Positions 12,795 to 17,341 of a stretch of 43,732 nucleotides of DNA are shown piece by piece. Made by a program: the position numbers and the translations under genes. Numbering within the stretch: position 1 is the stretch's first letter; each line of letters starts with the position of its first letter. Below the pieces are notes generated by a model, which did not search any database, was not told the DNA's origin, and was given only the letters and a program-made list of their open reading frames with translations. Source of the DNA: Nitrososphaerales archaeon (lineage in GTDB: Archaea > Thermoproteota > Nitrososphaeria > Nitrososphaerales > JACPRH01); assembly GCA_030754585.1 (NCBI GenBank), contig JASMAB010000003.1, forward strand, positions 1 through 43,732. The letters run 5' to 3'.

Positions 12795-13445
12795 TTAATT
12801 TGGTATCTGGAACCTTCGATAATAGTATATGCTAGCATAAGATACCAATAGAATGGGGATAAGATACGGAGTCAGAGAATTTAAGATTGATGGACTTTGA
12901 AAAGTTGAAGTTTCTATCAAGAAAGATTTCTCTAGGTCACCTCTATTAGTAACAACCGTTACATCATAAACATCATCTTTAGGGGTAAGATCTGCTAATT
13001 CTGTATTCAATCTAATGACACCGAATCCACCTGAAGGCACTCTCCGGTTATAATAGAAATATCCATTCGCATCAAAGACATATGAGTTGCCAGAATAGAC
13101 ATTATGATGTTTTTCATTAATGTATATGGATCTAATATATAAATAGAGATCCCCAGGATTTGTTACAGTTACTGTTATTGTATCATTTGAAACGGTATCC
13201 TGATCAATACTCATTGATTCCACATTACCCGTTAACGTATAATTTGCTGACAAACGCCACCAATTAGGATAGTTATTCTCATATGTTCCTATTTTAATTA
13301 TATTTCCATAGTATCCAGCGAAAACTATGCATATAGATAATACCGAAATTATTAGGATAATATGAGTTATTATACGATTCACAATGATATCACAAAAACT
13401 ATTTAAGAACAAATGAGTTAATGTATATGGTATAAGCTTTTTCAT
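12795..13445 (-). CDS. Hypothetical membrane-anchored protein (N- and C-terminal TM, beta-rich extracytoplasmic domain)
   Basis: Hydrophobic segments IITHIILIISVLSICIVFAGYY and LIPILLVSYASIYYY flank a VTVTNPGDLYLYIRSIYI-type beta-rich region. Start abuts the stop of the NAD-kinase-like gene. Confidence 0.7.
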   Translation of the reverse strand: MKKLIPYTLTHLFLNSFCDIIVNRIITHIILIISVLSICIVFAGYYGNIIKIGTYENNYPNWWRLSANYTLTGNVESMSIDQDTVSNDTITVTVTNPGDLYLYIRSIYINEKHHNVYSGNSYVFDANGYFYYNRRVPSGGFGVIRLNTELADLTPKDDVYDVTVVTNRGDLEKSFLIETSTFQSPSILNSLTPYLIPILLVSYASIYYYRRFQIPN

Positions 13446-14447
13446 CTACACTGTGGAATACATTTTCTCACGTCCATCTCTGAGAGAAGATCTCCTTTTA
13501 ACTAAACCCCTATCAAGAAGGCTTGATAGCGCCAGACTGACTGTTCTATCAGGAAGCATTGTCTTCTTCAATATATCTCGGCGGCTCAATGGCCCCTCAT
13601 ATTCCAAGGTCTTTAGCATCAGTTTTGCACTTGGTGGCATGGCAAGAAGATCACGAGCAAGAATGATTTTCTTTGCCATCTTATTAGTGGTATGTGAAGT
13701 CTTAGTCAACCTAATAAGACGCACAGGGTTTATTGACTTAGATATTTCAACCATTTTACCTATCTTTGAGCGATAGATACCATCGATTATTACTTCGCAC
13801 TGAAGTCTGCTGACTATGTTATCCACCATTACTTTAGAATCATCTGGTATAATTAAGGGTCTACGTGTCACATCCAAAGAATTAACAGAAACTACAGTAA
13901 AGACACTGGCCTGTGGCAATATCATTGGTCCACCAGTTGACATAGCATATGCAGTTGAGCCAGTGGGAGTAGCAATAATCAATCCATCGCTACTGTCAGT
14001 CCATATCTCTTCATCATCCACCTTTAGAGTATATTCCAGAAGGGTGGCGGATCGATGTGGAAAGATTGCGACTTCATTGACAGCTGGTGGACATTCTATG
14101 CTGTCTGTCTTTACGGTTAGAGTTTTAGATTCTTCCACTTCGAATTTTCCTTTGGAGATTTGTTGGATTACTTGTCTAAGTTTAGATAATCCAAGTTCTG
14201 TGAGGAACTTTCCGTCATCATTTTCATTTACACCAAGAATAGGTATATTCAGTTTAAAGATCTTATGAAAAGTCTTTAGTATATCATTATCATTACCCAA
14301 TATAAGTACAAAGTCCCCCCATTTTGCATCAGAGTCAGAAATTTCGTCAATAGTTTTGAATTTAATATTGATATCACTAAGAATCTCGAAAATATTGTGC
14401 AGAGCTCTTTCAGATCTTCTTGGAGTCATTATCAAGATATTAATCAA
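13446..14447 (-). CDS. NAD kinase-like domain fused to a C-terminal winged helix-turn-helix
   Basis: NEVAIFPH, DGLIIATPTGSTAYAMSTGGPMI and RRPLIIPDDSKV are NAD-kinase-like. C-terminal ~60 aa PPSAKLMLKTLEYEGPLSRRDILKKTMLPDRTVSLALSSLLDRGLVKRR is wHTH-like. GGDGT position reads GNDND. Confidence 0.85.
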   Translation of the reverse strand: MINILIMTPRRSERALHNIFEILSDINIKFKTIDEISDSDAKWGDFVLILGNDNDILKTFHKIFKLNIPILGVNENDDGKFLTELGLSKLRQVIQQISKGKFEVEESKTLTVKTDSIECPPAVNEVAIFPHRSATLLEYTLKVDDEEIWTDSSDGLIIATPTGSTAYAMSTGGPMILPQASVFTVVSVNSLDVTRRPLIIPDDSKVMVDNIVSRLQCEVIIDGIYRSKIGKMVEISKSINPVRLIRLTKTSHTTNKMAKKIILARDLLAMPPSAKLMLKTLEYEGPLSRRDILKKTMLPDRTVSLALSSLLDRGLVKRRSSLRDGREKMYSTV

Positions 14448-14549
14448 ATAAATTCCTCAGCAGTTTTTACCTAAAGACTACTTGTATGTATTTTTTCTGC
14501 TTATTACTAAAACCTTATCTTACCGCTAAATGAATAGAATGTAAGAGAA

Positions 14550-15416
14550 TTGATAGAATCTCAGAAAGAAATAGTAGAATCGAGATTGAGCCTAAAAATA
14601 TTGGAGTTCCTCCGTGAAGATTTGGGTTCAGGAGATATTACAACTAACTCAATTATTGATGCTGAAAGACATGTAAAGGCCAAGATAATCTGCAATGAGA
14701 AAGCCGTGATATCAGGAGTTGAGGAAGCTATCTTAGCATTCAATCTCCTAAAATGCTCAGCCCAAGGTTTGATTATGGAGGGTGATTCTGTTGAAGAAGA
14801 TACTGTTATCATTAAGGTAAGTGGTAAAGCAAGGTCAATTTTGAAGGCTGAAAGAACTTCACTCAATATTTTAGGTCGAATGTCTGGAGTTGCCACTGAG
14901 ACAAATAAGATGGTTAAAGAGGCCAGAAGGGCCAACCAGAAGATAAGGGTTGCAGCAACTCGTAAAACTCAACCAGGTTTTAGAATCTTTGATAAGAAAG
15001 CTGTCAAGTCTGGAGGGGGTGATCCACATCGATTACGACTTGATGATGCCGTTCTCATTAAGGACAATCACCTTAAGATTACTAGTTCTGTTACAAAAGC
15101 TGTACAATTGGCAAGAAAGAATGTTAGTTTCACGAAGAAAATAGAGGTAGAAGCTTCGTCGGCAGAAGAGGCTTTGGAAGCTGCTGAAGCTGGAGCAGAT
15201 ATTGTTCTACTGGATAATATGTCCCCACAAGAAGTTTCAAAAGTAATTAAGATATTAAAAGAAAGACAAGTTAGAAATGGAATATTTCTCGAAGTTTCAG
15301 GAGGAATCAGATTAGAGAATGTTAAGGCATACAGTGAGACGGGTGTTGATGCAATATCTTTGGGCTGGATAACCCATTCAGCGAAGAACATCGATTTTGA
15401 TCTTGAGATAATCTGA
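14550..15416 (+). CDS. nadC: Nicotinate-nucleotide (quinolinate) pyrophosphorylase
   Basis: EDLGSGDITT, ERTSLNILGRMSGVAT, RKTQPGFRIFDKKAVKSGGGDPHRLRLDDAVLIKDNH; TTG start. Confidence 0.96.
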   Translation: MIESQKEIVESRLSLKILEFLREDLGSGDITTNSIIDAERHVKAKIICNEKAVISGVEEAILAFNLLKCSAQGLIMEGDSVEEDTVIIKVSGKARSILKAERTSLNILGRMSGVATETNKMVKEARRANQKIRVAATRKTQPGFRIFDKKAVKSGGGDPHRLRLDDAVLIKDNHLKITSSVTKAVQLARKNVSFTKKIEVEASSAEEALEAAEAGADIVLLDNMSPQEVSKVIKILKERQVRNGIFLEVSGGIRLENVKAYSETGVDAISLGWITHSAKNIDFDLEII

Positions 15417-15434: not shown

Positions 15435-16262
15435 ATGATAAAAGTTGGAATTATTGGATGCGGAGCAATCGGAACTACATTAGCAGAAGCTATCGATTCG
15501 GGTGTTGTAAATAATGTTGAGCTAGTAGCATTATTTGACTTATTTGATGATCGAATTGAGACTCTTGTCCAAAAACTGAATCATAAACCTAAAAAATATT
15601 ACGAGTTCGAAGTGTTTCTAAGAAATGGTGGTGCAGACATAATAGTAGAGGCAGCTTCTCAACAGGCTGTTATTAGTTATTCCGAAAGAGTGATCACATC
15701 AGGAAAGGACATCCTGATTATGAGCACAGGTGCTCTGCTTGATAAAGAATTCTTGAAGAGAATAAAAGAAGCAGCTAAAAAGCATGGGAGACAAGTACAA
15801 GTACCCTCGGGTGCAATAGGTGGGTTAGATGTTGTAAAGGCCGCAAAACTTGAGGGATTAGAAAGAGTTGTTTCAACTATACGTAAGAATCCAGAATCAT
15901 TAAAGGCCTCACCTGATTTCCAGGGAATAGTGAAAGACTTCGATGACTTAAAGGAACCTAAGATTATTTTTCAAGGATGTGCCAATGACGCTGTCAAGCT
16001 TTTTCCATCTAACACCAATGTTTCAGCAGCCTTGAGCCTAGCTGGGATAGGTGGACAGAATACTGTTGTCAGGGTCATCGTTGACCCTACTATAACCATG
16101 AATATCCATGAGATAGAGATTAAAGGAAAGTTCGGAAAGATGAAGATTCAATTAGAGAATTATAAACACCCATCAAATCCAAAAACGAGTTATTTAGCAG
16201 TTCTCTCTGCAATCGAAACATTAAGATCGAATATTTCAGGAGGTATGAAAGTAGGAACCTAG
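15435..16262 (+). CDS. nadX: L-aspartate dehydrogenase
   Basis: VGIIGCGAIGTTLAEAI, VEAASQQAV, VPSGAIGGLDVVKAA; lies between nadC and nadA. Confidence 0.92.
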   Translation: MIKVGIIGCGAIGTTLAEAIDSGVVNNVELVALFDLFDDRIETLVQKLNHKPKKYYEFEVFLRNGGADIIVEAASQQAVISYSERVITSGKDILIMSTGALLDKEFLKRIKEAAKKHGRQVQVPSGAIGGLDVVKAAKLEGLERVVSTIRKNPESLKASPDFQGIVKDFDDLKEPKIIFQGCANDAVKLFPSNTNVSAALSLAGIGGQNTVVRVIVDPTITMNIHEIEIKGKFGKMKIQLENYKHPSNPKTSYLAVLSAIETLRSNISGGMKVGT

Positions 16263-16366
16263 AAGATTAATATGAATATCGTTGGCAGTTTTTGCCTAAG
16301 TTTTGGAATTGAATTAACCTTTTGCAAGTAAAATATTGTATATTAATGTCCAAGGTCTGATATAAA

Positions 16367-17341
16367 GTGAAACAAAGGTTGGAGAGACTCGAGATAAAGC
16401 AAATAGATCATCTTATAGAAGATATACAGAGATTGAAGGAGACACGGAAAGCTATTATTTTAGCCCATAATTATCAACTAGGTGAAATACAAGATATAGC
16501 TGATTTTACTGGAGACTCGTTAAAGCTCTCCCAAAAGGCAGCTGAAACAGAGGCAGAAACAATAGTATTTTGTGGAGTAAATTTTATGGCCGAGACAGCT
16601 GCCATATTATCTCCAGAGAAGACAGTACTAGTACCGGATCCTGCAGCAGGTTGCTCCTTAGCAGATACAATAAACATAGATCAGCTTAAGACATGGAAAA
16701 TGAAGCACCCAAATGCAATTGTGGTTTCATATATTAACACCACTGCAGAAATTAAAGCGGAAAGCGACTATTGCTGCACTTCAACAAATGCTTTAAAAGT
16801 CATAAACGCAATTCCATCCAATAAAGAAATCCTTTTTCTGCCTGATATTTTCTTAGGTACATATCTTCAAACAATTACCGGACGAAAACTCCAACTTTGG
16901 CCTGGAGAGTGTCATGTTCACGCAAGTATACGGCCAAACGTAGTGAACAATCTGAGAGGTCAACATCCAGAAGCAGAATTCCTAATCCATCCTGAATGCG
17001 GATGTTTGACTCCAAGCATGTATTACTTAGCCAACGGAGACATATCGTCTAAGGATACACATATCCTTTCGACTGAAGGTATGATAAGGCGTGCTAAAGA
17101 ATCGAGTGCTAGTAGATTCATAATAGCTACTGAGGTGGGCATACTTTACAAAATGAAGAGGGATAATCCTCGCAAGACTTTTCTGCCAGTTAATCCAGAT
17201 GCGGTTTGTGAGTATATGAAGCAAACTACACTAGATACTGTATATAAATCTCTTAAGGAGATGATTTATCAAGTAAAAGTGCCTAAAAATATCGCGGTAA
17301 AGGCAAGAAGATCAATAGATAAGATGCTTGAGTTAACTTAA
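16367..17341 (+). CDS. nadA: Quinolinate synthase
   Basis: ILAHNYQLGEIQDIADFTGDSL, FCGVNFMAETAAILSPEK, HPECGCLT. Confidence 0.96.
   Translation: MKQRLERLEIKQIDHLIEDIQRLKETRKAIILAHNYQLGEIQDIADFTGDSLKLSQKAAETEAETIVFCGVNFMAETAAILSPEKTVLVPDPAAGCSLADTINIDQLKTWKMKHPNAIVVSYINTTAEIKAESDYCCTSTNALKVINAIPSNKEILFLPDIFLGTYLQTITGRKLQLWPGECHVHASIRPNVVNNLRGQHPEAEFLIHPECGCLTPSMYYLANGDISSKDTHILSTEGMIRRAKESSASRFIIATEVGILYKMKRDNPRKTFLPVNPDAVCEYMKQTTLDTVYKSLKEMIYQVKVPKNIAVKARRSIDKMLELT

Follow-up and report, generated by a model that had tools for sequence, protein, structure and literature searches.

The window, that is, the whole stretch of 43,732 nucleotides analysed here, derives from a Nitrososphaerales archaeon and harbours a reverse-strand gene whose product joins an NAD-kinase-like domain to a C-terminal winged helix. 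The reading frame starts with TTG and was confirmed as a real gene; its product is referred to below as the regulator, the role proposed for it. Divergent from it are nadC, nadX and nadA, predicted to be its targets (Table 1). A sequence-only reading had placed these genes about 100 bp away, and the gap indeed measures 102 bp (14448-14549), with all three nad genes scoring above their NCBIfam cut-offs. Directly downstream of the regulator, on the same strand (12795-13445), lies a gene for a 216-aa predicted membrane protein that has no Pfam or NCBIfam match. It is kept downstream of the regulator in 5/5 family genomes, with 32-64% identity in the other four.

Table 1. Features of the regulator locus and their positions in the window.
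Feature	Position	Strand	Basis
Putative regulator gene, 333 aa: NAD-kinase-like domain, linker helix and C-terminal winged helix	13446..14447	-	ORF, Pfam, AlphaFold
NAD-kinase-like domain, aa 1-246	13710..14447	-	Pfam, AlphaFold, Foldseek
Degenerate GGDGT motif, reads GNDND, aa 51-55, Asp kept	14283..14297	-	Sequence, alignment
NE motif, aa 124-125	14073..14078	-	Alignment; contacts NAD in known NADKs (PMC8553519)
DGLIIATPTGSTAY, aa 154-167	13947..13988	-	Alignment; Asp154 and Tyr167 matched by motif spacing
Linker helix joining both domains, aa 252-268	13644..13694	-	Secondary structure of AlphaFold model
MarR-like winged helix, aa 272-332	13452..13634	-	MarR_2 2.8e-6; AlphaFold model
Presumed DNA-recognition helix, aa 300-312, overlaps conserved LPxRT	13512..13550	-	Orthologue alignment
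Candidate operator, first palindrome AGCAGTTTTTACC, differing from GGCAAnnnTTGCC at 3 positions	14459..14471		Weak alone, p 0.12
Candidate operator, distal arm (...CTGCT)	14490..14501		Pair measures 43 bp from outer arm to outer arm, as in relatives
nadC, quinolinate phosphoribosyltransferase, predicted target	14550..15416	+	TIGR00078, 323 bits, cut-off 198
nadX, aspartate dehydrogenase, predicted target	15435..16262	+	TIGR03855, 249 bits, cut-off 207
Candidate operator GGCAGTTTTTGCC, ~70 bp upstream of nadA	16284..16296		p 0.003
nadA, quinolinate synthase, predicted target	16367..17341	+	TIGR00550, 330 bits, cut-off 263

The fusion of an NADK-like domain to a winged helix, previously read from the letters, is recovered concordantly by Pfam and AlphaFold. 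NAD_kinase_C matches aa 124-246 (3.8e-25) and MarR_2 matches aa 271-327, above its cut-off; the NAD_kinase match is weak (5.9e-5, aa 32-101; 23.8 bits, just below the cut-off of 25.5). The AlphaFold model, built with 49 sequences, has a mean pLDDT of 91.1 and folds the last ~60 residues, as had been claimed, into a winged helix with helices at 272-284, 289-296 and 300-312 and a two-strand wing. When the model was searched with Foldseek, the best PDB matches were all NAD kinases, headed by 7qvs (E 1.7e-27), and prokaryotic NADKs gave target-normalised TM scores of 0.78-0.87, with 0.87 for the archaeal 1suw. The NCBIfam NADK equivalog does not discriminate, since not only the fusion (142 bits) but also its canonical paralogue (150 bits) falls below the cut-off of 326. 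Full-length orthologues with 44-87% identity are present in 25/40 related genomes, which puts the architecture far beyond chance. Against a C-terminal domain devoid of DNA-binding residues, the orthologue alignment shows the winged helix to be one of the best-conserved regions of these proteins, with L298, P299, R301 and T302 invariant across the 25 orthologues.

Within the kinase domain, the NE motif and DGLIIATPTGSTAY are both present, as stated previously, and the regulator possesses the NAD-contact residues Asn124, Glu125, Asp154, Thr165 and Tyr167. Judged by motif spacing, Asp53 and these five are, in this order, the counterparts of the NAD-site residues Asp85, Asn159, Glu160, Asp189, Thr200 and Tyr202 of M. 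tuberculosis NADK, with Asp154 and Tyr167 matching the nicotinamide-contacting Asp189 and Tyr202. NAD kinases build this site across the dimer interface, Asp189 of the M. tuberculosis enzyme being contributed by the neighbouring subunit (PMC8553519). Across the fusion family, no variation is seen at Asp53, Asn124, Asp154 or Tyr167. The GGDGT-type motif reads GNDND: the first glycine is kept, as is the aspartate, which serves as the base activating the NAD 2'-hydroxyl (PMC8553519), and the threonine and the glycines at positions 2 and 4 are changed, the loss of both glycines having been noted before. Across an alignment of 72 proteins, GGDGT occurs in 0/43 fusions and in 29/29 canonical NADKs; G-x-D is kept in 43/43 fusions. 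Most fusions carry bulky or charged residues at positions 2 and 4 (GNDND, GEDSD, GTDRF, GRDRD). The f12 fusions read GGDGD, with GGDG intact, and kinase activity is thus possible in these members. That GNDND is an ordinary variant of archaeal NADKs is ruled out by these counts, which leave GNDND-type motifs absent from the canonical enzymes of these archaea, and by a review that lists GGDGT in 124/127 archaeal NADKs (PMC8553519). Because the pocket residues are invariant and GGDGT is found in none of the 43, the fusions have retained the NAD pocket residues with an eroded phosphate-donor loop, and we infer a loss of kinase activity.

The same 72 proteins (43 fusions and 29 canonical NADKs) are parted by one branch, with a support of 100/98 for full-length sequences and 100/97 for the kinase domain only. 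A single origin is the simplest reading of this split: an NADK paralogue was probably fused to a MarR-like winged helix once. A second intact NADK, which the sequence-only reading had proposed to look for, is encoded on another contig of the source genome (C55; L001:1347-2165), is 272 aa long and carries GGDGT, which excludes the regulator as the only NADK of the genome. Most of the related genomes with a fusion also contain a separate canonical NADK, and so do Thorarchaeota, Vulcanisaeta and Nitrososphaeraceae genomes. A PF01513 search of G029 and G019 found the regulator and no second NADK; both assemblies are incomplete, so that this absence may be a gap, or these may be bifunctional cases. 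The canonical NADKs of these Nitrososphaeria (L001:1347-2165 and orthologues) mostly have GSTGH in place of the GSTAY found in the regulators and in most NADKs, the nicotinamide-stacking Tyr being replaced by His.

The fusion is widespread. Among 200 sampled genomes of the window's phylum, 79 from at least 12 families gave matches running through the winged helix; canonical NADK matches end near position 260. Named loci include those of Nitrosopumilus, Nitrososphaera, Nitrosocaldus, Terraquivivens, Vulcanisaeta, Brockarchaeota and Thorarchaeota. The Asgard archaea, the phylum of the Thorarchaeota locus, show the fusion in 22/79 sampled genomes. Spread through DPANN was rejected, as L184 alone among 76 genomes of its DPANN phylum contains a copy. 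This Aenigmatarchaeota copy (L184:4091-5101) has one in-frame TGA between its halves and sits beside intact nadB, pncB and pncA; as it is isolated in its phylum, transfer or a misbinned contig is possible, as is decay.

The association with nad genes remarked upon in the window extends beyond it: many lineages show it, in differing gene orders. The regulator is divergent from nadC-nadX-nadA in G000, G001 and G003, from nadX-nadA, with nadC, in G038, and from nadA-nadC-nadX in Brockarchaeota and in genomes of f19, f22 and f41; in f25 it is directly upstream of nadA. Among the 56 genomes of the phylum sample that possess both genes, the regulator lies within 2 kb of nadA in 15, divergently in 12. 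Eight of 12 Asgard-phylum loci are divergent from nadA and three are directly upstream of pncB, the identities of nadA and pncB being confirmed by NCBIfam. The Brockarchaeota, phylum-sample and Asgard loci rule out chance adjacency in one genome. The fusion and nadA tend to occur together (both in 56 genomes, fusion only in 23, nadA only in 45, neither in 76; odds ratio 4.1, p 3e-6, phylogeny ignored), and the existence of the 23 and the 45 genomes counts against the regulator reading. So does the position of the gene in many ammonia oxidizers, where its neighbours are pyrG and a gene for a ribosomal S26e-like protein instead of nad genes, and so does the fusion-bearing genus f24 g42 (e.g. Terraquivivens), at whose loci no nad linkage was found. 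In genomes without intact nadA, the divergent neighbour is an MFS transporter (G016, G019, G029, G062), an amino-acid permease (G072, G197) or an ABC binding-protein operon (G235). The MFS transporters are nearest to the aromatic-acid/H+ symport subfamily; this match is below the cut-off, and they cannot be named as a known niacin transporter.

Side-by-side reading of the divergent gaps revealed the palindrome GGCAAnnnTTGCC (GGCAA-N3-TTGCC). The site upstream of nadA in the window is the sole match with at most one mismatch in all 43.7 kb. The gap between regulator and nadC contains a diverged double copy (14459-14501), a weak site that counts against the regulator reading; the corresponding site is nearer to the consensus in G003 (TGCAATATTTACC) and in G002 and G004 (CGCAATATTTGCC), and in the latter two the palindrome stands in the regulator's own leader. 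Most fusion-bearing genomes have the palindrome 46-84 bp upstream of the nadA start, including ammonia oxidizers, in which it precedes nadA though the regulator gene is elsewhere; the four genomes that have nadA and lack the fusion show no such site in the nadA promoter (at least 3 mismatches). Asgard, Brockarchaeota, f13, f19 and f22 lineages have it inside the regulator-nadA gap. The site is often a tandem of 13-bp palindromes set 29-31 bp from each other, or roughly three turns of the helix, and conservation is strongest in the outer arms: Asgard regulator/nadA gaps show exact or near-exact pairs 29-30 bp apart, the nadA promoters of f5, f11 and f12 retain exact outer arms only, at N34, and those of f13 have outer arms at N33.

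A motif first seen by eye may be an artefact, and two counts speak against this. When all gapped inverted repeats in nadA promoters were tallied, GGCAA-N3 occurred in the largest number of genomes (11, next best 6); the AT-rich AATTT-N6 touched one family more. A spacing histogram, which used the arms first seen by eye, singled out N3, found with at most one mismatch in 17/41 regulator or nadA upstream regions from eight lineages, and the N33/N34 spacing of the outer arms, found in 11/41, every other spacing giving 0-4. Elsewhere in fusion-bearing genomes, exact matches lie mostly inside genes; the regulon thus looks small, and a large regulon of exact sites is not supported. In nadA promoters, the operator is located just upstream of an AT-rich, TATA-like stretch, a position that allows repression or activation of the nad genes. 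Its closeness to the regulator's own start in divergent loci suggests autorepression there; autoregulation everywhere is not supported, as no palindrome was found in the regulator's own promoter in ammonia oxidizers. In five of the latter (L078, L074, L066, L077, L067), nadC is separately transcribed and weaker sites such as GACAAACTTTGCC or GGCATACCTTGCC are observed ~105-175 bp upstream of it.

Considered jointly, the fusion, the separate canonical NADK, the altered motif with its kept pocket residues, the recurrent linkage and the recurrent operator-like site support the enzyme-derived regulator of NAD synthesis that had been suggested from the sequence, and we hold with good confidence that the protein serves NAD supply as a dedicated transcription regulator that senses NAD(P). 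It would descend from an NADK paralogue in which the NAD(P) pocket was retained, the portion of GGDGT concerned with the phosphate donor was lost and a MarR-like winged helix was added. NAD kinases are usually tetramers. An oligomer of this type is the most likely form of the regulator, and a tetramer with four winged helices would fit the double palindrome: paired winged helices would touch two GGCAAnnnTTGCC sites separated by roughly three turns of the helix, which lie immediately before the TATA region of nadA or nadC and near the regulator's own start. Occupation of the pocket between subunits by NAD(H) or NADP(H) would change DNA binding in such a way that nad genes are expressed at a low pool and not at a high one; the sign of the DNA-bound state forms no part of the claim. 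Where a genome has no nadA, the predicted targets of the regulator are salvage (pncB) or uptake of a pyridine precursor. Binding to the palindrome, the ligand, the oligomer on DNA and the choice between repression and activation are all inferred features of the model. More tentatively, and with slightly less than even confidence, the fusion may be envisaged as an ancient archaeal NAD(P) sensor and general regulator of NAD supply, already present near the common ancestor of Thermoproteota-type and Asgard archaea: a kinase-inactive NADK tetramer that would read the NAD(H)/NADP(H) pool and, by its paired winged helices, a double GGCAAnnnTTGCC operator with a core kept across phyla.

The main competitor of a dedicated regulator is a bifunctional protein that combines retained NAD kinase activity with DNA binding, just as prototypic NrtR keeps its Nudix activity. 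The invariant catalytic Asp53, the intact NE motif and region II, the GGDG of the f12 fusions, the lack of a detected second NADK in the incomplete G029 and G019 assemblies and the existence of alpha-proteobacterial NADKs with GGDGE (PMC8553519) all speak for such a protein. It is nevertheless improbable in view of the complete partition of GGDGT between fusions and canonical NADKs, the bulky or charged substitutions in most fusions and the separate canonical NADK of most genomes. A far slimmer chance is accorded to a winged helix with another role, in dimerization or in RNA or protein contact, the palindrome at nad promoters then belonging to another regulator. The distance between regulator genes and palindrome in ammonia oxidizers would fit such an arrangement, but the palindrome co-occurs with the fusion, is missing from the four fusion-less nadA promoters and appears in the regulator-nadA gap of Asgard, Brockarchaeota, f13, f19 and f22 lineages and in the G002 and G004 leaders, and LPxRT is invariant at the recognition helix. 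It is hardly credible that the protein is an ordinary active NADK paralogue with a decorative tail, its nad linkage reflecting mere pathway clustering: NADKs can adjoin NAD genes and Hfx. volcanii, too, carries a pair of NADK paralogues (PMC8305020), yet here the winged helix is conserved family-wide, the motif loss is uniform, the linkage is mainly divergent and not co-operonic, transporters or pncB are the partners where nadA is absent, and candidate operators are present.

Compared with known systems, the dedicated regulator shares with NAD kinase (PF01513/PF20143; 7qvs, 1suw) the fold, the NE motif, the DG..TPTGSTAY region and the catalytic Asp; it differs in the lost GGDGT, the added winged helix, its place across the 100/98 branch, its proximity to nad operons and the usual presence of a canonical NADK besides. 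The bacterial NrtR also combines an enzyme-derived ligand domain with a winged helix and adjoins and regulates NAD genes, and some of its members lost catalysis (PMC6800001); its ligand domain is Nudix, not NADK, and no Nudix domain was matched by Pfam in the regulator, which is thus not an NrtR. The bacterial NAD/niacin repressors NadR and NiaR likewise govern the synthesis, salvage and uptake genes of NAD metabolism; the former fuses NMNAT to ribosylnicotinamide kinase, and the latter contains a 3H domain. Neither NMN adenylyltransferase and ribosylnicotinamide kinase domains nor a 3H domain were found in the regulator with Pfam and NCBIfam, which sets it apart from both. The archaeal RbkR, reported to be bifunctional (Rodionova et al. 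2017, cited in PMC8305020), is, as far as that citation describes it, a similar union of a cofactor-pathway kinase with a DNA-binding domain controlling the same pathway, in its case a riboflavin kinase, unrelated to NADK, and riboflavin genes. With MarR/TrmB-type archaeal regulators the protein shares the type of DNA-binding domain, and it differs from them in having a whole NADK fold as ligand domain. In open-licence PMC full text, no description was found of an NADK-winged-helix fusion regulator, nor of any regulator of NAD synthesis in archaea, and the family is apparently undescribed so far.

If the proposal is correct, ammonia oxidizers, Crenarchaeota-type thermophiles and Asgard archaea acquire a regulator of NAD synthesis together with a predicted operator, and NAD kinase joins the enzyme folds turned metabolite sensors, namely Nudix (NrtR), NMNAT (NadR) and riboflavin kinase (RbkR). 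Many fusion genes run the risk of annotation as NAD kinase. In nadA-less genomes, the genes divergent from the regulator encode transporters of unrelated types (amino-acid permease, MFS, ABC), which would become candidates for the import of niacin or quinolinate; divergent transporter loci are L279:4290-5798 (-), L280:4343-5920 (-), L268:6945-8132 (+), L038:1203-2546 (-) and L272:7187-10322 (+). A long protein of no recognised family (720 aa, L183:6948-9110; also in L321-L326) follows the regulator in many Asgard loci, where it is probably co-transcribed with it and is a possible further member of the NAD regulon.
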